Source: Acuticoccus yangtzensis | GTDB lineage: Bacteria; Pseudomonadota; Alphaproteobacteria; Rhizobiales; Amorphaceae | Direction of reading: 5' to 3' | Length of the DNA: 64,000 nt | Assembly (NCBI RefSeq): GCF_001927245.1 | Contig: NZ_MJUX01000001.1 | Location: 372,001 to 436,000 of the forward strand | Part shown: positions 5,931 to 15,512 of the stretch, piece after piece | Position numbering within the stretch: the stretch's first letter is position 1 | Layout: each line of letters opens with the position of its first letter | The notes under the pieces: generated by a model | Database searches by the model: none | The model's input: only the letters and a program-made list of their open reading frames with translations | What the model was told of the DNA's origin: nothing | Translations under genes and position numbers: made by a program

Positions 5931-7085
5931 ATGTTTCCGCTCGAAGGTATCAAGGTGCTCGACCTGTCGCGCGTTCTCGCGGGGCCGACCGCCACGCAGA
6001 CGCTCGCCGACCTCGGCGCGGAGGTGTGGAAAATCGAGGCGCCCGGCGCAGGCGACGACACACGCGGCTGGATGCCACCCCAGATCGGCGGCGAATCCAC
6101 CTACTTCATGGCCGCCAACCGCTCCAAGAAGTCCGTCGAGATCGACCTGAAGAACCCCGAGGGTCTGAAGACCGTCCTGGCGCTCGCCGCGCAGGCCGAC
6201 GTTCTGGTCGAGAATTTCCGCCTCGGCGCGCTGGACCGGATGGGCCTCGGCTACGAGGCGATCTCCAAGCTCAACCCCGCGATCGTCTACGCCTCGATCT
6301 CCGGCTACGGGCGTACCGGGCCGCGCGCGGCCGAGCCCGGCTACGACTTCGTCATCCAGGCCGAGAGCGGGCTGATGGCCATCACCGGCGAGCCGGACGG
6401 GCAGCCGATGAAGCTCGGCGTCGCCATCACCGATCTCGTCACCGGCATGAACACGGTGCAGGGCATCCTCGCCGCGCTGATCGCCCGCGGTCGCACCGGG
6501 CGCGGCCAGCATGTCGACATCTCGCTGTTCGACAGCGCCGTCGCAGCGCTCGCCAACGTCGCAACCGGGCACCTTCAGACCGGCGGCGGCTTCAAGCGCT
6601 TCGGCAACGCCCACCCGACCGTGGTGCCCTACCAGACCTTCGACACCGCCGACGGCACGCTCTGCCTCGCGGTGGGCAACGACAGTCAGTTCAGGAAGCT
6701 CTGCACCCTCGTCATGGAGCGGCCGGACATGGCGGAGGACGTGCGCTTCATCCGCAACCGGGACCGTGTGGAGCATCGCGGCGCGCTGATCCCGGCGCTG
6801 GCGGGCATCTTCTCCACCAAGCCCAACGCCCACTGGATCGCCGCGCTGAAGGCGGCGGGCGTTCCCTGCGGCGAGGTGCGCACCGTGGAACAGGTCTTCG
6901 ATTCGCCCGAGGTTGCGGCACGCAACATCGTGCTGGAGGTGCCGGACGCCAAGCACGGCACACTGCGCCTCGTCGCCTCCCCCTTGCGCCTGTCCGAGAC
7001 GCCGCCGCGCTTCCCCTCCGCCCCGCCGCGCCTCGGCGAGCACACCGAGGAGGTGCTGTCCGCCTACGTGAAGGTGCCGGGCTGA
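5931..7085 (+). CDS. CaiB/BaiF family (class III) CoA transferase
   Basis: Class III CoA transferase of 384 residues. The N-terminal LDLSRVLAGPTATQTLADLGAEV-type segment and the catalytic aspartate D139 (in GYDF, equivalent to the formyl-CoA transferase nucleophile) are present, and the C-terminal domain is complete. Members move CoA between carboxylic acids through aspartyl-CoA anhydrides. I chose ATG 5931 (MFPLEGIKVLD) because the family starts just before this strand and AAGGGG lies 11 nt upstream; an upstream ATG at 5787 adds 48 low-complexity residues. The acid substrate is unknown. It is divergent from the MaoC gene and convergent with the FAD oxidoreductase gene. Confidence 0.9.
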   Translation: MFPLEGIKVLDLSRVLAGPTATQTLADLGAEVWKIEAPGAGDDTRGWMPPQIGGESTYFMAANRSKKSVEIDLKNPEGLKTVLALAAQADVLVENFRLGALDRMGLGYEAISKLNPAIVYASISGYGRTGPRAAEPGYDFVIQAESGLMAITGEPDGQPMKLGVAITDLVTGMNTVQGILAALIARGRTGRGQHVDISLFDSAVAALANVATGHLQTGGGFKRFGNAHPTVVPYQTFDTADGTLCLAVGNDSQFRKLCTLVMERPDMAEDVRFIRNRDRVEHRGALIPALAGIFSTKPNAHWIAALKAAGVPCGEVRTVEQVFDSPEVAARNIVLEVPDAKHGTLRLVASPLRLSETPPRFPSAPPRLGEHTEEVLSAYVKVPG

Positions 7086-7151
7086 CCCAGGCACGGCGGT
7101 TCGTTCAGGCCGCCCCGCCGACCCAGGCATCTGGCCGCGGCCGGAGCCGGC

Positions 7152-8576
7152 TCAATCCGGCAGGACCTTGCCGGGGTTGAGGATCCCGGCCGGGTCCATC
7201 GCCGCCTTCAAGGCGCGCATCATGGCGAGTTCCACCGGGGCGCGGGCGCGCGTCAGCTCGGCCCGCCGCAACCGGCCGACGCCGTGCTCGGCGGTGATCG
7301 ACCCGTTGTGCGCCATCACGATGTCGTGGACGATCCGGTTGATCGCCTCGGTCTCGCCCTTCCAGGCCGCATCCGTCCAATCCACCGGACGGATGGGGTT
7401 ATAGTGCAGGTTGCCGTCCCCCGCGTGGCCGAAGGTGCAGTGGCGCACGCCGGGATAAGCCGCCTCCATCGCCGCATCCGCCTCCGCCACGAAGGCGTCG
7501 ATCGACGACACAGGCACCGACACGTCGTGCTTCACCCCGGCGCCGGTTTTCTGCTGCACCTCGGCCTGGTCCTCGCGGATCCGCCAAAGCTGCGCCGCCT
7601 GGGCCTCTGACGCGGCAATTACCGCGTCGGTGATCAATCCCTCCTCGAGCAGTGCCCCCAGCGCCTCCTCGAGACGCTCGGACAGCGGCGGCTCGGCGCG
7701 CGGCCCGTCCGCCTGGATGAGCACGCGCCAGCCCGCCCCCGGCAGCGGATCGGCATGACCCATCGTCTCCTGTGCAAAGCGGAAAGTGTTGGCGTTCATC
7801 AGCTCGAACGCGGAGAGGAGCTCGCCCAGCGCCGCGCGCAGCCGGGTCAGAAGCTCCACCGCGGCCGTGGGGGTGTCGACCGCCACCAGCGCAACGCCCC
7901 GGTCCACGGGGCGCGGGAACAGCCGCAACGTCGCCGCGGTGATGATGCCGAGCGTGCCTTCAGAACCGATGAAGATCTGCTTCATATCATAACCGGCGTT
8001 GTCCTTGCGCAGGCCGCGCAGTCCGTCCCACACCTCGCCGTCCGCCGTCACCACCTCGAGGCCCAGGCACAGCGCCCGCGCGCTGCCGTAGCGCAGCACC
8101 TGCACCCCGCCCGCGTTGGTCGCGAGGTTGCCGCCGATCTGGCACGTGCCCTCCGCCGCCAGCGACAGGGGAAAATAGCGGTCCGCCTCCGCGGCCAGAT
8201 TCTGCACCTCGAGTAGCGTCACCCCCGCCTCCACGGTGATGGTGTCGTTGAGCGGGTCCAACGCCCGCACCCGCTTCAGCCGCGTGGTGGACATCACCAC
8301 CTCGTCGCCGGTGGCGTGGGGCTGGCCGCCGCCGGTCAGCCCCGTGTTGCCGCCCTGGGGGACGATCGGCGTCCCCGTCTCGGCGCAGATCTTCACCAGC
8401 GCCGCCAGCCGCTCGGTCGTGTCGGGGCGCAGCACCAGCGGCGTCTTGCCGGCCCAATTGTCGCGCCAGGACACGCAATAAGGTTCGGTGTCCGGCCCCT
8501 CGATCCAGCCGCCCGGTCCGGCGGCCTCCTTCAAGCGGGCGAGGGTGGCGGATTGGATCGGGGCGTGGATGGTCAT
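7152..8576 (-). CDS. FAD-binding 2-hydroxyacid dehydrogenase (GlcD / D-2-hydroxyglutarate dehydrogenase type)
   Basis: Flavoprotein of 474 residues with a PCMH-type FAD domain (GGNTGLTGGG, GGNLATNAGG, GSEGTLGIITAA) and a FAD-oxidase C-terminal domain with GHAGDGNLHYN and EHGVGR. These residues are shared by D-lactate dehydrogenase (cytochrome), glycolate oxidase subunit GlcD and D-2-hydroxyglutarate dehydrogenase. No GlcE or GlcF partner is nearby, so a stand-alone D-2-hydroxyacid dehydrogenase passing electrons to the respiratory chain is more likely than a glycolate oxidase complex. ATG 8576 gives the expected N-terminus; the ribosome-binding site is weak. Confidence 0.9.
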   Translation of the reverse strand: MTIHAPIQSATLARLKEAAGPGGWIEGPDTEPYCVSWRDNWAGKTPLVLRPDTTERLAALVKICAETGTPIVPQGGNTGLTGGGQPHATGDEVVMSTTRLKRVRALDPLNDTITVEAGVTLLEVQNLAAEADRYFPLSLAAEGTCQIGGNLATNAGGVQVLRYGSARALCLGLEVVTADGEVWDGLRGLRKDNAGYDMKQIFIGSEGTLGIITAATLRLFPRPVDRGVALVAVDTPTAAVELLTRLRAALGELLSAFELMNANTFRFAQETMGHADPLPGAGWRVLIQADGPRAEPPLSERLEEALGALLEEGLITDAVIAASEAQAAQLWRIREDQAEVQQKTGAGVKHDVSVPVSSIDAFVAEADAAMEAAYPGVRHCTFGHAGDGNLHYNPIRPVDWTDAAWKGETEAINRIVHDIVMAHNGSITAEHGVGRLRRAELTRARAPVELAMMRALKAAMDPAGILNPGKVLPD

Positions 8577-8725
8577 GTCTTAGTCTCGGCGCCGCGGGGC
8601 GGCTTCTGTTCGGTTCGTCAGGGTGCAACATGCCACGCCAGGGCCTCGTCGTCAGGGCGCGTTGCGTCGTCGCCCGGAATTCGATGGCGCCGGGCGGCGA
8701 GAGGTGCATCATCGCGCCGTCGCCG

Positions 8726-10015
8726 TCAGATGGCGCCCATGCACGAGGGGCGGCGTTCGAGAGGCCGCGCGACGGGGACGGGGGCGGGCGCCGGATCCGC
8801 CGCGGCGAAGGCATCCAGTGCGGCAAGGCGGGTGCGGGCGAGGCCCGCGATCTGCCGCGCCGGTGGCCCCGCCGCATCCGCCAGACCCGCGAGGCGGCTC
8901 CAATAGGCGGCGTTGGCGGCGATGATCTCGGCCTCGACATGGGGAAGAGCGTCCGCCGCTGCCGCATTCGAATGGCACAAGGCCGACGCGCGCAGCACGA
9001 AGGCGAGCACGCGGCGGAACGCGGCCCGGTGGCGCGCGGCGGGGATCACCAGCTTGGAGAGCCGCACCTCCCCCGCCTTCCCCGCCGACGCCTGGCCGAT
9101 GAAGCCGCGCAACGGCGCCACGTCCGGCGGCAGAGGCCCACGGTAGGCGCCGCCGGACGCCGTCACCGTCAGCCGCCGTCCTGCGGCAAGCCCGACCGAC
9201 ACCGGCACCGAGCCGACGAAGTCCGGCGCCGGGTCGACGAACCCGTAGAAGAGCAGAGTTTCCAAGGCGTCATATAGGTTGTAGCGGACGAAGACTTCGC
9301 CCGACGCGGCGGGCGCAGCGCTCACCGTGAGGGCCACCGGCGCCGCCATCTCGTCGACACTGAAGGGCTCCGCGCCGAGATGGTGATTGATGCAGTCGAC
9401 GATCGGCAAGAGCACGCTGACGGGTCCCGCCGCCTCCTGCCTGCCCGCGGCCCCGCCCGGCCCGGCAAGCTCGGGCCGCAGCGCGAACATGCGCGCGTTG
9501 AAGAAGGTGGTGAGGGCCAGCGCATCCTCACCCTCCACCGTTCCCGCCCGCTCCATCAGGCTGCGGAACTGGCGCACCTTCACCGCCCCCGCACGCGCGG
9601 CGAGGAGGTGGTCCAGCAACGCACCGTGGTCCTTCAGCGCCAGAAGCGGCGACTGGCGGCGCCACGACCCCAGCTTGCCGCACGCATTATAGAGCGCGAC
9701 CATGTGGCCGAGGATCTCCGCCTGCAGCGGCGTCGCCGCACCGTCCGCCTTGGCGGAGAGATGATCCCCCTCCGCCCGCAGGCTGAAATCGCGCATCCGC
9801 GGCATGGCGGCGACGGGTACGCTGAGCTGGCGGCCGGCGGTGGAAGCGGCAGCGCCGCTCTTCACCGCCAGGTCACCGCCGTGCGCGGTGATGGAAAGGG
9901 CGGGGTCGAACCACCCGCCCGCGTCGGCCACGCGCGCTGCGATCGCCGTGAGATGCTCGGCCGCCGCGCCGTCGCCGTGGATGTGAGGGAGTGTCATGCT
10001 GTGAGGCAGTGTCAT
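8726..10015 (-). CDS. SET-domain-like protein (RuBisCO LSMT / SETD6-like architecture), tentative
   Basis: Protein of 429 residues. I recognise the SET family of the RuBisCO-large-subunit-methyltransferase type from the middle part: LLPIVDCINHH (N210, H211), corresponding to the SET NHxx motif, then FVRYNLYDALETLLFYGFVD with the YG pair at 257-258, spaced as in plant LSMT, SETD3 and SETD6. SET enzymes transfer methyl groups from S-adenosylmethionine to lysine or histidine. The C-terminal 150 residues are helical and could be the substrate-binding domain. The ATG at 10015 has GAGGAG 7 nt upstream; a second in-frame ATG at 9997 lies in a near-repeat of the first six codons. The gene begins 26 nt after the repetitive gene, so they are probably one operon. 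The match is by motif only. Confidence 0.55.
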   Translation of the reverse strand: MTLPHSMTLPHIHGDGAAAEHLTAIAARVADAGGWFDPALSITAHGGDLAVKSGAAASTAGRQLSVPVAAMPRMRDFSLRAEGDHLSAKADGAATPLQAEILGHMVALYNACGKLGSWRRQSPLLALKDHGALLDHLLAARAGAVKVRQFRSLMERAGTVEGEDALALTTFFNARMFALRPELAGPGGAAGRQEAAGPVSVLLPIVDCINHHLGAEPFSVDEMAAPVALTVSAAPAASGEVFVRYNLYDALETLLFYGFVDPAPDFVGSVPVSVGLAAGRRLTVTASGGAYRGPLPPDVAPLRGFIGQASAGKAGEVRLSKLVIPAARHRAAFRRVLAFVLRASALCHSNAAAADALPHVEAEIIAANAAYWSRLAGLADAAGPPARQIAGLARTRLAALDAFAAADPAPAPVPVARPLERRPSCMGAI

Positions 10016-10041
10016 GGGGCGTCTCCTCGGCTGGCTGGCGG

Positions 10042-10803
10042 TCACATGAAGGCGATGGGATCGGGCGCCTCGCCCTCGAACCCCGCCGGCGCGTAGGTCC
10101 ATTCCACCATCGCCCCGTTCTGCCCGGTGTAGGTCCACTCCACGGCGGCATCCTGGCTATAGGTCCACTCGACCAGGGCCCCGTCCGGCGTCTTGTAGGT
10201 CCATTCCAGCACGTCGCTTCCGGCGAGCTTGGCGGCGCCTTCGAACACGGCGCCGTCCTGCGACCGATAGGTCCATTCGAGGACGTCCTCGCCGACGGAG
10301 AACAAGAATGCGATGTCCGGCTCGCCGTCCTTCGCCTCCCCGTCGATCCCGTCGAGCTTGAGGTAGAAGTCGACCGCCTCGGTCCCGTCACCGTCCAGCT
10401 TCAGGTAGAGGTCGATGTCCGGGGTGCCGTCCTTCGCCTCCCCTTCGACCCCGTCGAGCTTGAGGTAGAAGTCGACCGCCTCGGTCCCGTCGCCGTCCAG
10501 CTTGAGGTAGAGGTCGATATCCGGGGTGCCGTCCTTCGACTCCCCGTCGACCCCGTCGAGCTTGAGGTAGAAGTCCACCGCCTCGGTCCCGTCGCCGTCC
10601 AGCTTGAGGTAGAGGTCGATGTCGGGGACGCCGTCCTTCGACTCCCCGTCGAATTTAAAGTAAAAGTCGGGGGAAGAACCGCGGCCTCCTCCGATCAAGA
10701 AGTCGAGATCGGAGAGCTGGAGAATGTTCGCGTCGAAATGTCCGCCGTTTGCTTTCGGCAGTGCGAACGCGGCCCCATCGTCACGGAAGTTGAACTTGTT
10801 CAT
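10042..10803 (-). CDS. Highly repetitive acidic protein with YLKLDG and EWTY motifs
   Basis: Unrecognised 253-residue protein. Residues 1-44 form a non-repetitive head (MNKFNFRDDGAAFALPKANG, then an ILQLSDLDFLIGGG stretch). Residues 45-161 hold seven copies of D-[FL]-Y-[FL]-K-[FL]-D-G: one at 46-53 and six inside three near-identical 34-residue repeats (60-93, 94-127, 128-161). Four KDG tripeptides follow the YLKLDG pairs. Residues 174-237 hold five EWTY motifs spaced 10-24 residues apart. There is no cysteine, and no signal peptide or membrane segment is visible. ATG 10803 follows a weak GGGTG site. It lies directly upstream of the SET-like gene. Repeated lysine motifs next to a putative lysine methyltransferase suggest enzyme and substrate, or a multi-core modified peptide; this is inference. 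Confidence 0.75.
   Translation of the reverse strand: MNKFNFRDDGAAFALPKANGGHFDANILQLSDLDFLIGGGRGSSPDFYFKFDGESKDGVPDIDLYLKLDGDGTEAVDFYLKLDGVDGESKDGTPDIDLYLKLDGDGTEAVDFYLKLDGVEGEAKDGTPDIDLYLKLDGDGTEAVDFYLKLDGIDGEAKDGEPDIAFLFSVGEDVLEWTYRSQDGAVFEGAAKLAGSDVLEWTYKTPDGALVEWTYSQDAAVEWTYTGQNGAMVEWTYAPAGFEGEAPDPIAFM
10321..10626 (-). repeat. Three tandem 102-bp in-frame repeats
   Basis: Three consecutive 102-bp units encode the 34-residue repeats of the repetitive protein (residues 60-161). Units differ only by a few bases (for example VDGESKDG against VEGEAKDG). The high DNA identity suggests recent duplication or ongoing copy-number change by slippage or recombination. Confidence 0.92.
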
Positions 10804-10889
10804 GTTACACCCATTGCATCGTGGCCGGGGTGGCCTTCCCGAAAGATCGAGAAGCCACACCGCCAAACAATGGGAGCGGGCGCCGCGCT

Positions 10890-10934
10890 GTGATGACGAT
10901 CACCCCGCCTCGCCCGAGACGTGACGGGCGTCAC
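10890..10934 (-). promoter_or_regulatory. Two CRP/FNR-like palindromes upstream of the repetitive gene
   Basis: Two 14-bp inverted repeats, GTGAT-GACG-ATCAC (10890-10903) and GTGAC-GGGC-GTCAC (10921-10934), have centres 31 bp apart, about three helical turns. Both fit the CRP/FNR-family form [TC]GTGA-N6-TCACC. They lie 87-131 bp upstream of the repetitive gene's start and after the SHOCT gene's stop. A helix-phased pair is what a dimeric regulator would use; which regulator is unknown. Confidence 0.45.
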
Positions 10935-10952
10935 CGGAAACCGCGTTGCCGG

Positions 10953-11846
10953 TCAGAGGCGGGAGAGAAGCTCCGCCTTCTTGGTCTGGAACTCCTCGTC
11001 GGTGAGGACGCCCGCCTTGTGGAGCGCCGCCAGCCGTTCGATCAGGCCGATCACGTCACCGCCGGGTCGGGCCTCGGAGGAAGGCGCGGCCGGCGGCTGT
11101 GATGGCGGCGGGGCGGGTGCGGCCTGCGGCTCGGTCGTCCACGGCGCGGCATCGAGCGGCGGAGCGGGCTGCGGCTCGGGCGCCCACGGTGCGGGCTGCG
11201 GCTGAGGCGGAACGTCCTGCTGCGGTGCCGCCGCCTGCGGTGCGGCCATCTGCGCAGACGCGCCCGCCTGCGCAGATGCACCCCCGGCGATCGACGCCTG
11301 GGGCAGCGAAGACAGCGCATATTGGCCATATTGGCTGGAGAAGGAGATCCCCGCGAAGGGATCGCCAGGACCGGACTGCTGCTGCCCCCAGCCGCCGATC
11401 TGGTGGTCCTGCGTGTCGAGCAGGATCACCGGGCCGCCGTTGCCGGGGTCGAAGGCGATGCGCCGCGCGTTCGGAAAGTAGGCGTAGCGCACGCTGTTCT
11501 GCCCGCCGGTGGACGAGGGCTGGCCCAGCTCCGACGGCCACCAGGCCCCGCCGCCGAAGCTCTGCGGCACTTGAAACAGCACCGTCCCCGCCATGATGTT
11601 GGACAACTCGGCGCACAGATTGTCCACCTGCGCCTTCAGGCCGTGGTTGAACATGTCGCCGACCATGGTCATGCCGCCCATCATCCACTGGCCGGAGCCG
11701 CCGAGCTCGGGGATGTTGAACTGCGCCATGGTGCCGCCGCCGCGGGCCACCGCCCGCGCCATTTCCTCCACCGCGCCCGTCGACAGGCCGTAACGCGCGG
11801 CGATGTCGCCCAGGATCCGGTGGGCATCTCCCGTCAGGTCGCTCAT
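10953..11846 (-). CDS. SHOCT domain-containing protein
   Basis: Protein of 297 residues. Residues 1-170 form a compact domain rich in Gly and Met (AQFNIPELGGSGQWMMGGM), residues 180-255 are a low-complexity Ala/Pro/Gln linker, and the last 35 residues form a SHOCT module (DVIGLIERLAALHKAGVLTD, ending KKAELLSRL), a short helical segment thought to mediate oligomerisation. ATG 11846 has GGGGGA 7 nt upstream, better than the upstream ATG at 11903. No enzyme motif is visible. It precedes the repetitive gene by 149 nt on the same strand; the CRP-like palindromes in that gap suggest separate control of the next genes. Confidence 0.8.
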   Translation of the reverse strand: MSDLTGDAHRILGDIAARYGLSTGAVEEMARAVARGGGTMAQFNIPELGGSGQWMMGGMTMVGDMFNHGLKAQVDNLCAELSNIMAGTVLFQVPQSFGGGAWWPSELGQPSSTGGQNSVRYAYFPNARRIAFDPGNGGPVILLDTQDHQIGGWGQQQSGPGDPFAGISFSSQYGQYALSSLPQASIAGGASAQAGASAQMAAPQAAAPQQDVPPQPQPAPWAPEPQPAPPLDAAPWTTEPQAAPAPPPSQPPAAPSSEARPGGDVIGLIERLAALHKAGVLTDEEFQTKKAELLSRL

Positions 11847-11976
11847 CGCAGGTCCCCCTTGGGCGCCATGGGCGCCGCGTTTCGCCATAAGCGCGCATGA
11901 CATTTATCGCCACGTGCAGCAAGGCCGTGCGAGCGGCCGCGAGGCCCCCGCTTCGCCCGCACTTGCCGCGGGCATG

Positions 11977-12010
11977 AAAAAGCCCCCGGCGCCGGCGGCA
12001 CCGGAGGCTT
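11977..12010 (-). terminator. Rho-independent terminator after pnp
   Basis: On the minus strand a GC-rich hairpin with arms AAGCCTCCGG and CCGGGGGCTT is followed by TTTT. It lies 158-191 nt beyond the pnp stop, after the 34-bp repeats, and ends the rimP-pnp transcription unit. Confidence 0.8.
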
Positions 12011-12060
12011 CGTGTGACGCGCGAACCCTGCCGCCGCGCAATGCGGCGGGTTCGCAGGCC

Positions 12061-12182
12061 GCCGCTTATTCGGCGGCGTCCTTCAGGCTGGGGCGCCGCC
12101 TATTCCGCGGCGTCCTTCACGCTGGGGCGCCGCTTATTCCGCGGCGTCCCTCACGCTGGGCCGCGGCTTATTCAGCCGCGTC
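12061..12182 (-). repeat. 34-bp tandem repeat at the 3' end of pnp (3.6 copies)
   Basis: Counting leftwards from the last codons of pnp, units occupy 12182-12149, 12148-12115, 12114-12081 and a partial 12080-12061. Each unit starts GACGC[CG]GC and carries AATA[AG]GC with inverted GCCGC/GCGGC arms, so every unit is a small stem-loop, and the pnp stop TAA lies inside the first. It looks like repeated duplication of the gene's tail together with its stop codon. Confidence 0.93.
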
Positions 12183-14288
12183 CTTGGCGATCTCGGTGCC
12201 GGTCTCCTGGTCGACGACCTTCATGGAGAGGCGCACCTTGCCGCGCTCGTCGAAGCCCATCAGCTTGACCCAGACCTTCTGGCCTTCCTTCACCACGTCG
12301 GAGGACTTCTCCGGGCGGCCGTTGGTCATCTGCGAGATGTGGACCAGACCGTCACGCGGGCCGAAGAAGTTCACGAAGGCGCCGAAGTCGACGACCTTCA
12401 CGACCGTGCCCTCGTAGATCATGCCCACTTCCGGCTCGGCGGTGATGCCGCGGATCCAGTTCAGCGCGGCCTTGATGGCCTTGCCGTCGGAGGACGCGAT
12501 CTTCACCGTGCCGTCGTCGGAGATGTCGACCTTGGCGCCGGTCTTCTCGACGATCTCGCGGATGACCTTGCCACCGGAGCCGATCACTTCGCGGATCTTG
12601 TCGACCGGGATGTTGATGACCTCGATGCGCGGCGCATATTCGCCGAGCTCGGCGCGAGCCTCGCCCAGCGCCTTGCCCATCTCGCCCAGGATGTGGACGC
12701 GGCCGTCCTTCGCCTGGCCGAGCGCGACCTTCATGATCTCTTCGGTGATGCCGTCGATCTTGATGTCCATCTGCAGCGAGGTGATGCCGTTCATGGAACC
12801 GGCCACCTTGAAGTCCATGTCGCCGAGGTGATCCTCGTCGCCCAGGATGTCGCTGAGGACGGCGAACTTGTCGCCTTCCTTGATGAGACCCATCGCGATG
12901 CCCGCGACCGGAGCCTTCAGCGGCACGCCCGCGTCCATCATCGCCAGCGAGGAACCGCAGACGGTGGCCATGGAGGAGGAGCCGTTCGACTCGGTGATCT
13001 CCGACACGAGGCGGGTCGTGTAGGGGAAGTCGTGGTGCGCAGGCAGCATCGGGTGAACCGCGCGCCAGGCGAGCTTGCCGTGGCCGATCTCGCGGCGGCC
13101 GGGGGAGCCCATGCGGCCCGTCTCGCCCACCGAGTAGGGCGGGAAGTTGTAGTGCAGCATGAAGGTCTCCTTGCGGGTGCCTTCAAGCAGATCGACGAAC
13201 TGCTCGTCGTCGCCGGTGCCGAGCGTCGCCACCACCAGCGCCTGCGTCTCGCCACGGGTGAAGAGCGCGGAGCCGTGGGCGCGCGGCAGGATGCCGACCT
13301 CGGCCATGATCGGACGGACCGTCTTCAGGTCGCGCCCGTCGATGCGGGTGCCGTCGTCCAGAATCTGGCCGCGGACGATGGAGGCCTCCACCTTCTTGAA
13401 GACGTCGCCGGCCTGCTGCTTGGTCGGCGCGCCCTCGGCGTCGGTGACGAACTCGGCCATCACGCGGGCCTTCACGTCGTCGATCGCGGCGCGGCGGTCG
13501 GCCTTCTCGCGGATCGCGTAGGCCTTCTTCAGGTCGGCCTTGGCGAAGGCGGTGATCTTCTCGGTCAGCGCGCTGCGGTCTTCCGGCTGGAACTCGCGCG
13601 GCTCCTTGGCGGCCTTCTCGGCGAGGCGGATGATCGCGTCGATCACCGGCTGGAACTCGCGGTGACCGAACATCACCGCGCCCAGCATGATGTCCTCGGA
13701 GAGCTCCTTGGCCTCGGACTCCACCATCAGGACGGCTTCGTCGGTGCCGGCGACGACGAGATCGAGGAGCGTATCCTCCATCTGGTCGAGCGTCGGGTTC
13801 AGGACATACTCACCGTCGATATAACCGACGCGGGCGCCGCCGATCGGGCCCATGAAGGGAACGCCCGACAGGGTCAGCGCCGCGGAGGCCGCGACCATCG
13901 CCAGAACGTCAGGCTGGGTCTCGAGGTCGTGGGCCAGCGTGGTGATGATGACCTGGGTGTCGTTCTTGTAGCCTTCCACGAAGAGCGGGCGGATCGGCCG
14001 GTCGATCAGGCGCGACGTCAGCGTCTCATGCTCGGACGGGCGGCCTTCGCGCTTGAAGAAGCCGCCGGGGATCTTGCCGGCCGCAAACGCCTTTTCCTGG
14101 TAGTTCACCGTCAGCGGGAAGAAGTCGAAGCCGGGCTTGGGCTCCTTCTCGGACACGACGGTCGCGAGGACGGTGGTCTCGCCGTAGGTGGCGAGGACGG
14201 CGCCATCGGCCTGACGGGCGATCTTGCCGGTTTCGAGGGTGAGCGTGCGTCCGCCCCACTCGATGGATTCTTTTTGGATATCGAACAT
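12168..14288 (-). CDS. pnp: Polyribonucleotide nucleotidyltransferase (PNPase)
   Basis: Phosphorolytic 3'-5' exoribonuclease of 706 residues, a normal length. Order: RNase PH domain 1 (from residue 1; [13 protein letters not shown]), an all-helical linker, RNase PH domain 2 ([32 protein letters not shown] near the active site), a KH domain ([15 protein letters not shown]) and an S1 domain ([20 protein letters not shown]). It works in RNA turnover, probably in a degradosome. ATG 14288 begins [13 protein letters not shown], the family start. It follows rpsO, as in most proteobacteria. Its last codons are repeated downstream as 34-bp units. Confidence 0.98.
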
Positions 14289-14699
14289 CGTTGTTCTTGC
14301 CTTTCATGCGTGTCCGGCGCTGGCGGGCAAGACGGCGAGAGGCTCGGCCCCGCGGGCCTTCGAGGCGGCCCTGAGGGTCGAGCGTCCGGCAATCCTGCCC
14401 CACCTGAAGAGCCGGTGGCCCCGGGGGCCGGGCGGCACATCATCGCCACCCGTTCGTCGTCGTTCGTCCTCCCCCGCGGCCTGCTGTGGTGCCGCTTCGG
14501 GGACGGTGTCCGGCCCGGATTCGACCGAGCCGGTCCCGGCCCGTTTTCGGGTCCGGGGTTCATCGCCGGCGCTGGTCCGGGCGGTGCCGGCCGGCGGTCC
14601 TGACGATGGTTGGCCCGACGATGCGGGCCGGTGCTCCTCGCCTCAACCGGGGCGAGACGATCGCGATAGGGCCACGATGGACGGGCCGACAATCGCGAC
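14289..14699. other. rpsO-pnp intergenic region, no gene seen
   Basis: This 411-bp stretch shows no convincing reading frame on either strand. It is very GC-rich with several hairpins, the clearest at 14536-14556 (arms CCGGCCCG and CGGGTCCGG around TTTT). In Escherichia coli the pnp leader here contains an RNase III-cleaved hairpin used for autoregulation; whether this hairpin does the same is inference. Confidence 0.6.
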
Positions 14700-14724
14700 G
14701 GGAAAGGCCGCCCGAAGGCGGCCC
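14700..14724 (-). terminator. Terminator after rpsO
   Basis: On the minus strand GGCCGCC-TTCG-GGCGGCC is followed by TTTCC, starting 7 nt beyond the rpsO stop. A stable UUCG-capped hairpin with a short T run suggests partial termination before pnp. Confidence 0.75.
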
Positions 14725-14730
14725 ATCAGA

Positions 14731-15000
14731 TCAGCGGCGCAGGCCGAGACGGCCGATGATGGACTGGTAGCGCTCGACGTCCTTGCCCTTCACATAGTCG
14801 AGAAGGTGACGGCGCTGGGACACCAGCTTCAGAAGACCGCGACGCGAGTGGTTGTCCTTCGCGTGGGTCTTGAAGTGCTCGGTCAGATTGATGATGCGCT
14901 CGGTCAGAAGCGCGATCTGCACCTCGGGCGAACCGGTGTCGCCTTCCTTGGTCGCATACTCTTTGATGAGCTCCTGGCGGCGCTCTGCAGTGATCGACAT
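14731..15000 (-). CDS. rpsO: 30S ribosomal protein S15
   Basis: Small basic ribosomal protein of 89 residues, the standard length, that binds 16S rRNA helices at the central domain. The sequence [17 protein letters not shown], the [16 protein letters not shown] loop and the RRHLLDYV segment are typical. ATG 15000 lies about 10 nt after an AGGAGA site. It lies between the truB side of the operon and pnp. Confidence 0.98.
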
Positions 15001-15194
15001 CGGTGTCTCCTATGTCACGAGGGATGCGCGGCGAGCCGGGATGTCGTCCAGCAAGCGCACGGGTCGGCCATGTCAGCGATACGCGAGACGGCCGCGTTCG
15101 CCAACACATAATGAGCGCATGGCGCCTGTTTTAGAGGCGTCATGCGCAAATGACGGCCGGTCGGGGCCGCTGCCCCTCGGCCGAAGCGGCCGTG

Positions 15195-15512
15195 TCAGAC
15201 GCAGACGAGATGGCGCGTCCACACCCAGCCGTAATAAATGCTGGACCCCGGCGCCGCAAGCCGCACCCAAAGGTCGGCCACCGGATCGAAGGGCACATCC
15301 AGAATTTCGACTGCGAGGCCGCTCGGCAGGGTGCCGTAGGTCGTCGTGCGCGGGGCGCGGTGATACTCGATCGGCGCGCCCAGGATGCAGGCATAGGGCC
15401 GGACTGCCGCCGCCGCGGGCGGTGCGGGAACGTAAAGATCCGCCGCACCGGCCGGGAAGGCCGCGGCAACGAGGCTGAGGCACGCAAGAATGCGCGTGAG
15501 AAGGCGACGCAT
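15195..15512 (-). CDS. Small exported SH3-like protein, unrecognised
   Basis: From ATG 15512 the protein has 105 residues: a signal peptide (MRRLLTRILACLSLVAAAFP, cleavage near AGA-ADL) followed by a mature domain of about 82 residues rich in short strands (RTTTYGTLPSGLAVEILD, then the DLWVRLAAPGSSIYYGWV segment). The periodicity resembles a bacterial SH3 domain, which often binds cell wall or other proteins; this is a guess from pattern. The upstream frame to 15605 lacks a signal-like start. It lies between truB and rpsO in the same direction, an insertion relative to the usual neighbours. Confidence 0.6.
   Translation of the reverse strand: MRRLLTRILACLSLVAAAFPAGAADLYVPAPPAAAAVRPYACILGAPIEYHRAPRTTTYGTLPSGLAVEILDVPFDPVADLWVRLAAPGSSIYYGWVWTRHLVCV

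Follow-up and report, generated by a model that had tools for sequence, protein, structure and literature searches.

A predicted SET-fold protein of a rare bacterial subfamily, encoded behind a strand-repeat protein gene in Acuticoccus yangtzensis

Three minus-strand genes between pnp and an oxidase gene

The window analysed here is a stretch of 64,000 nucleotides (nt) from Acuticoccus yangtzensis (NCBI RefSeq assembly GCF_001927245.1, contig NZ_MJUX01000001.1, positions 372,001 to 436,000 of the forward strand). Three genes on its minus strand, transcribed in the order SHOCT gene, strand-repeat gene and SET-like gene, are flanked by pnp (12168-14288) and by a gene for a FAD-linked oxidase (7152-8576), as named by Pfam. 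The last of the three constitutes the main subject: its product is predicted to be a SET-fold protein methyltransferase, with the lysines of the strand-repeat protein as its tentatively favoured target. For all three open reading frames (ORFs), longer upstream starts also exist.

8726-10015, minus strand: candidate SET-fold protein methyltransferase, 429 amino acids (AlphaFold2 model; SETD6 at Z 15.1 over 304 residues; SETD6 at E 2.1e-6 with an 11-member profile)
10023-10028, minus strand: GAGGAG, likely ribosome-binding site, 7 nt 5' of the SET ATG, within the 26-nt gap (sequence)
10042-10803, minus strand: strand-repeat protein, 253 amino acids (ORF; predicted all-beta at low confidence)
10953-11846, minus strand: SHOCT-domain protein, 297 amino acids, 149 nt upstream of the repeat gene (Pfam SHOCT, 2.4e-8)

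The spacing of the repeat gene and the SET gene is operon-like, with 26 nt between the stop of the former and the start of the latter (script count). GC content at third codon positions is 0.85-0.87 in the three frames (taken as longest ORFs), inside the range of the other window genes. An Rfam search of 7000-15500 gave no match, and promoter and terminator scans returned results at chance level only.

The SHOCT protein is probably the product of an independent gene, judging from its relatives. These occur in 32 plasmid records, 16 of them from Rhizobium, and the closest, on an Acuticoccus plasmid, is 74.7% identical over 61%. Two of the plasmid stretches (Acuticoccus and R. rhizogenes) contain neither repeat-protein motif nor the SET motif string, a string that recovers 18/18 known SET loci. 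An earlier interpretation made from the letters of the window (the sequence-only reading) had cast the SHOCT protein as an assembly partner of the repeat protein, a role that these two loci make unlikely.

Predicted fold and signature residues of the SET-like protein

For the 429-residue protein, a SET fold is predicted, of the class formed by the plant and animal proteins SETD6, SETD3 and RuBisCO large-subunit methyltransferase (LSMT). With its AlphaFold2 model (predicted local distance difference test score, pLDDT, 80.1; predicted template modelling score 0.79), the best Foldseek match is SETD3 (E 7.7e-5). In VIA-align, the overall fold (residues 19-408) corresponds to SETD6 with Z 15.1 and a root-mean-square deviation of 4.5 over 304 residues; Z is 12.3-13.1 for SETD3, up to 11.8 for LSMT and far lower, about 5, for SMYD proteins. 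Structural alignments of the model extend to residues 406-429. Among solved chains, SETD6 (E 2.1e-6) is the sole match below 0.1 to a profile of 11 members of the subfamily, followed by PAP7/pTAC14 at 0.16.

The assignment relies on profile and structure comparison; Pfam gives no SET match. At E up to 1, the window protein does not match Pfam SET; one of the 11 members does (E 0.0014), and Rubis-subs-bind is absent from the seven Pfam families that the 11 members match. No usable name was obtained from Pfam, NCBIfam, PHROGs or PADLOC. The class membership proposed by the sequence-only reading was recovered by structure prediction (SETD6, SETD3, LSMT); the Pfam profiles SET and Rubis-subs-bind gave no match for the window protein.

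The signature residues were read from 21 aligned genes, which represent 19 loci; in the window they correspond to the following features:

9383-9388, minus strand: Asn210-His211 of the D-x-x-N-H motif (Asn in 21/21, His in 20/21)
9242-9298, minus strand: C-SET motif EVFVRYNLYDALETLLFYG, residues 240-258 (E240, Y245, D249 and Y257 in 21/21; G258 in 19/21)
9815-9919, minus strand: N-terminal SET strands, residues 33-67, G-x-L-x-V followed by VP (21-gene alignment)

The invariance of N210, E240, Y245, D249 and Y257, together with the presence of H211 in all but one of the 21 genes, suggests an active site under selection. The NH and YG motifs noticed in the sequence-only reading correspond to D-x-x-N-H and YG, with the His in 20/21 and the Gly in 19/21 genes. 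By analogy with LSMT and SETD6, we take the invariant residues to be S-adenosylmethionine (AdoMet) and catalytic positions (e.g., a catalytic-type Tyr and the C-SET Tyr-Gly), and the strands of residues 33-67 presumably form the AdoMet side. In those strands, G-x-L-x-V is all that is left of the glycine-rich N-SET motif: G47 is present in 17/21 genes and the second Gly is missing in the window protein.

Such a reduced motif would be compatible with a pseudo-enzyme serving as a binding scaffold. The fold and profile matches include PAP7/pTAC14 of the plastid RNA polymerase, which may itself be a scaffold pseudo-enzyme, as well as chains of plastid RNA polymerase. The conservation of the five invariant residues in 21/21 genes, and of H211 in 20/21, argues against lost catalysis, and we regard a scaffold role as improbable.

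The likeness to the SETD6/SETD3/LSMT class comprises the fold and the D-x-x-N-H and E-x-F-x-x-Y...YG motifs. The window protein differs from these proteins in being bacterial, in its identity of about 10-15%, in the lack of a Pfam SET or Rubis-subs-bind match and in the shortened N-SET glycine motif. Unlike them, some of its relatives are fused to TPR and sulfotransferase domains.

Rarity, descent and gene neighbourhoods of the relatives

Judging from the genomes sampled, the subfamily appears to be rare in bacteria. In single-sequence searches, the window genome itself is the only one with a match in its own family (1/10 genomes), as also within the genus (1/8); the order has two among 397 sampled genomes, the window genome included, the other being G150 with a 27%-identical gene. 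An alignment with the G150 gene uncovered further relatives. Relatives are present in 6 of 385 sampled genomes of the class and 3 of 398 of the phylum, the window genome included in both, and in 8 of 177 genomes of the family of G1053; the sets searched overlap. Among genome contigs, three loci were confirmed from 35 candidate stretches (Ectothiorhodospira, Billgrantia and Halomonas). Single-sequence searches of genome contigs, viral contigs and plasmids, and a scan of viral contigs with an 11-row alignment, gave no SET relative. A more divergent relative, L020:9350-10270 in G703, matches 90 profile positions at E 1.5e-5 and carries YLDFVNHK and SYG motifs.

The closest relative of the window gene is that of Ectothiorhodospira (40% over 387 columns). 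In the tree, the window gene groups (94/100, with the order inside the group open) with Ectothiorhodospira, the two Halomonas-type rows and further genomes from outside its class, and stands apart from the other rows of its own class; this grouping suggests horizontal transfer.

Gene neighbourhoods were covered at 19 SET loci (numbered with L), up to 10 kb per side, several stretches being ended by contig ends. The naming of surface genes relied on reading and on Pfam matches of selected proteins rather than on a systematic scan. The loci are not independent: L016, L017 and L018 belong to one genus, L039 and L040 to a second, L068, L072, L073 and L074 to a third, and L069 and L070 to a fourth. 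A sulfotransferase profile has a match less than 5 kb from the SET gene in nine of the 19 loci (L004, L006, L007, L016, L017, L019, L039, L073 and L074), the nearest match lying at 0-4.7 kb. Six of the nine had built this profile and match it by construction, Pfam Sulfotransfer_3 having named those six beforehand; L007, L039 and L073 took no part in building it. As a control limited to the window genome, 11 Sulfotransfer_3 matches in 5.04 Mb correspond to about 0.04 expected per 20 kb.

A named structural gene (flagellin, Slr4 or DUF4402) adjoins the SET gene in four of the 19 loci. In L006 (4188-9176) and L007 (4194-9179), of Billgrantia and Halomonas, a protein of 1662/1661 residues with the SET part at its C-terminus is encoded between two flagellin genes. 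Pfam named TPR, Sulfotransfer_3 and Methyltransf_23 in the long protein of L006, along with both flagellins, and L007 was judged by similarity. The flagellin downstream of the long protein has 29-31 Tyr, compared with 2 in the upstream flagellin of L006, a difference that sulfation of tyrosines may explain. L040 has a TPR-SET gene at a distance of 257 nt from an Slr4 S-layer gene (E 2.5e-42), and in L019 a DUF4402 gene adjoins the SET gene. In L039, L073 and L074, a TPR-SET gene adjoins a gene of one secreted family that has no Pfam name, behind genes read as type II secretion; "S-layer" is for this family a guess from position. L004 encodes a porin (Pfam) about 1.2 kb from its SET gene and was left out of the structural count. 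In nine loci (the window, L005, L018, L020 and L068-L072), no surface or sulfotransferase gene was found in the stretch covered. Taken together, the neighbourhoods are best read as those of a surface-protein methylase subfamily.

Two observations concern individual loci. The stretches with a TPR-SET gene and a surface gene (L040:7655-11241, L039:8643-15511, L073:9265-12854 and L074:5571-14039) are possible surface-protein modification islands. L017 and L018 have a sulfatase gene near the SET gene, and in both the SET genes form tandem pairs (L017:8710-11088 in G632 and L018:1909-4329 in G399) that the sulfatase gene adjoins.

Most of the well-studied bacterial SET proteins are effectors aimed at host chromatin. 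Among the matches listed in a literature search, which covered titles and the beginnings of abstracts and included few subscription papers, NUE and RomA are secreted SET effectors of this kind; the relatives described here differ in adjoining bacterial surface-protein, sulfotransferase or housekeeping genes. SET proteins are known from bacteria, free-living ones included (PMC3980110). FliB is described as a flagellin lysine methyltransferase with a [4Fe-4S]-mediated reaction (PMC8598068): the proposed job, lysine methylation on a surface filament protein, is alike, and the fold predicted here is SET. Surface lysine methylation is known also for Rickettsia OmpB (PMC10450907). To judge from FliB and the OmpB enzymes, lysine methylases of surface proteins have so far been described only from kinds other than SET. 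None of the papers listed, by title and beginning of the abstract, connects a SET protein with S-layers, flagellin or sulfotransferases. The Rickettsia OmpB methylases presumably have a fold other than SET. The L040 locus resembles published Slr4 loci, the Slr4 gene lying behind genes read as type II secretion (PMC7821379, PMC11094555); the main texts of both papers have 0 occurrences each of methyltransferase, SET domain and sulfotransferase, and the TPR-SET neighbour is an addition here. If the reading as surface-protein methylases is true, a SET subfamily that keeps recurring near genes for S-layer proteins, flagellins and sulfotransferases would point to an ordinary bacterial job for SET enzymes and would yield a testable set of substrates.

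The strand-repeat protein as a candidate substrate

The product of the upstream gene is a very acidic protein (isoelectric point 4.05) with 15 Lys, 12 Tyr, 1 His and 0 Cys and the following repeated elements:

10348-10668, minus strand: seven D[FL]Y[FL]K[FL]DG strands, residues 46-152, starting at 46, 63, 77, 97, 111, 131 and 145 (script count)
10093-10278, minus strand: five EWTY motifs, residues 176-237, starting at 176, 200, 212, 222 and 234 (script count)
10311-10652, unstranded: 102-bp tandem DNA repeat, 3.4 copies, 93% matches (sequence)

Three 34-residue units, differing at few positions, start at residues 58, 92 and 126, and a Lys occupies one fixed place in each of the seven motif strands. 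The counts of strands, units and EWTY motifs, the protein lengths and the 26-nt gap agree with the sequence-only reading throughout. The motif counts are far beyond chance: when the protein was shuffled 100,000 times, the strand motif and EWTY each came up at most once. With the window read in all six frames, neither recurs elsewhere, the variable places of the strand motif being allowed to hold F, L, I or V. The single-sequence AlphaFold2 model has 15 strands and no helix of at least 4 residues, at pLDDT 58 (about 66-82 in the EWTY part). A fold search with this weak model gave nothing below E 0.001; OspA, lectins and retinoic/fatty-acid-binding proteins came out on top and were not used. Designed CTPR proteins match the 34-residue repeat with E down to 1.7e-10; this TPR reading was set aside because the score sums stretches of about 8-22 bits and the (weak) model shows strands.

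Another origin of the repeats would be copies of the N-terminal strand of Hcp, which would make the protein a decoy or accessory of type VI secretion and the SET gene unrelated to it. The unit resembles the first strand and loop of Hcp (AVDFxLKLxGVxGESKD), the rest of Hcp being unmatched. Against the PDB, the 34-residue unit gave nine matches (E 0.12-1.4). Four of them carry the name Hcp or hemolysin-coregulated, and EvpC and PA0085 likewise belong to the Hcp proteins; five free-standing Hcp-type matches align at residues 2-24. A 17-residue part of the unit is 14/17 identical to the Hcp of G005 (L022:1114-1596, minus strand), a value reached by 0/2000 shuffles, and Hcp is present in 2/10 genomes of the family, both of them congeners with EWTY proteins (G005 and G006). 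However, a search of the window genome found no Hcp, the likeness is limited to the first strand, and the Pfam profile T6SS_HCP (PF05638) scores 13.8 bits, below its cut-off of 23.5. The EWTY proteins of the congeners are themselves weakly or not Hcp-like, with 15/2000 (G005) and 1072/2000 (G006) shuffles as high. We consider a type VI origin very unlikely, somewhat more so than the scaffold role.

Among 297 genomes sampled from the order, tandem EWTY was found in three, all of one genus (G000, G005 and G006); the reversed pattern, used as a control, gave 0 in every row. The G005 protein has 92 residues and that of G006 has 76, from a chosen ATG inside a 141-residue frame; both are acidic and without Cys. 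Their genes (L033:441-719 and L034:7563-7988, both minus strand) stand alone at unrelated places, and the profile detects no sulfotransferase at either locus. The C-terminal ends are acidic and hydrophobic, GDEFF and LPDLF in the congeners and PIAFM in the window protein. Weak matches in 527-555-residue frames of G132, G200 and G003 (E 0.0055-0.0098) were dropped. A plasmid search with the repeat protein gave no match, and the one viral contig matched (L076) encodes a low-complexity ETKTDG protein and was rejected.

We tentatively favour, with a probability of roughly 0.42, an AdoMet-dependent SET methyltransferase of a rare subfamily for structural or surface proteins that methylates lysines of the upstream repeat protein. 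The 429-residue protein would act on abundant structural or surface proteins, and its gene would most likely form a two-gene unit with the strand-repeat gene, in second place. The modified lysines would be the recurrent ones of the repeat, located either in the Y-x-K-x-D-G strands or in the KDG loops, and methylating them would screen charge on a beta-sheet protein that stacks and is very acidic. We infer catalysis, a lysine target and a repeat protein that is both structural and the substrate. A broader version is doubtful: a SET-type system, TPR-guided and often accompanied by sulfation, that methylates lysines of surface layers or filaments and has been re-aimed here at the multi-site beta-repeat protein of the upstream gene.

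Several results weigh against the repeat protein as the substrate of a surface-protein methylase. The strongest is that, within the stretches covered, 0/18 other SET loci have either repeat-protein motif. In the two EWTY congeners, the single-sequence search detected no SET gene; the search recovered the 27%-identical G150 gene, and more distant ones could escape it. Ten of the 19 SET loci lack a sulfotransferase in the stretch covered, some of these being ended by contig ends, and the window SET gene has none within the 8.7-10 kb searched per side. By eye, no flagellin or S-layer gene was recognised in the window and no secretion signal was seen in the repeat protein. Three Halomonas-type flagellins whose lysines were counted are lysine-poor (1.1-1.5%). 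Pfam, BLAST and profile comparison show no likeness of the secreted family of L039, L073 and L074 to Slr4, so that it was rejected as Slr4-like, and the repeat-protein model (pLDDT 58) is insufficient for a fold name.

A rival is almost as likely, in which the SET protein is an active methylase for another cell or surface protein, its horizontally acquired gene having landed behind an independent, genus-specific repeat gene. The single match among eight genomes of the genus, the Ectothiorhodospira gene as nearest relative (40%) and the grouping outside the class (94/100) fit such a landing, as do EWTY proteins in two congeners without a detected SET gene and the missing pair at the 18 other loci. 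On the other hand, the gene follows the oddest gene of the stretch at 26 nt and with its own ribosome site, and SET genes adjoin a structural protein gene in several relatives. The proposal of an enzyme with a dedicated substrate, made in the sequence-only reading, thus stands in part: the SET fold, the operon-like spacing and a subfamily found beside surface genes speak for it, whereas the lack of any second pairing, named in that reading as a refuting observation, counts against a conserved pair, with neither motif at any of the 18 other loci within the stretches covered.

A reading of the repeat protein as a ribosomally synthesised and post-translationally modified peptide was rejected, SET being the only adjoining modifying enzyme recognised and the two genes showing no co-occurrence. 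Its residues 28-39, LQLSDLDFLIGG (10687-10722, minus strand), resemble by eye what we take to be a double-glycine leader pattern, an observation offered as an idea only.

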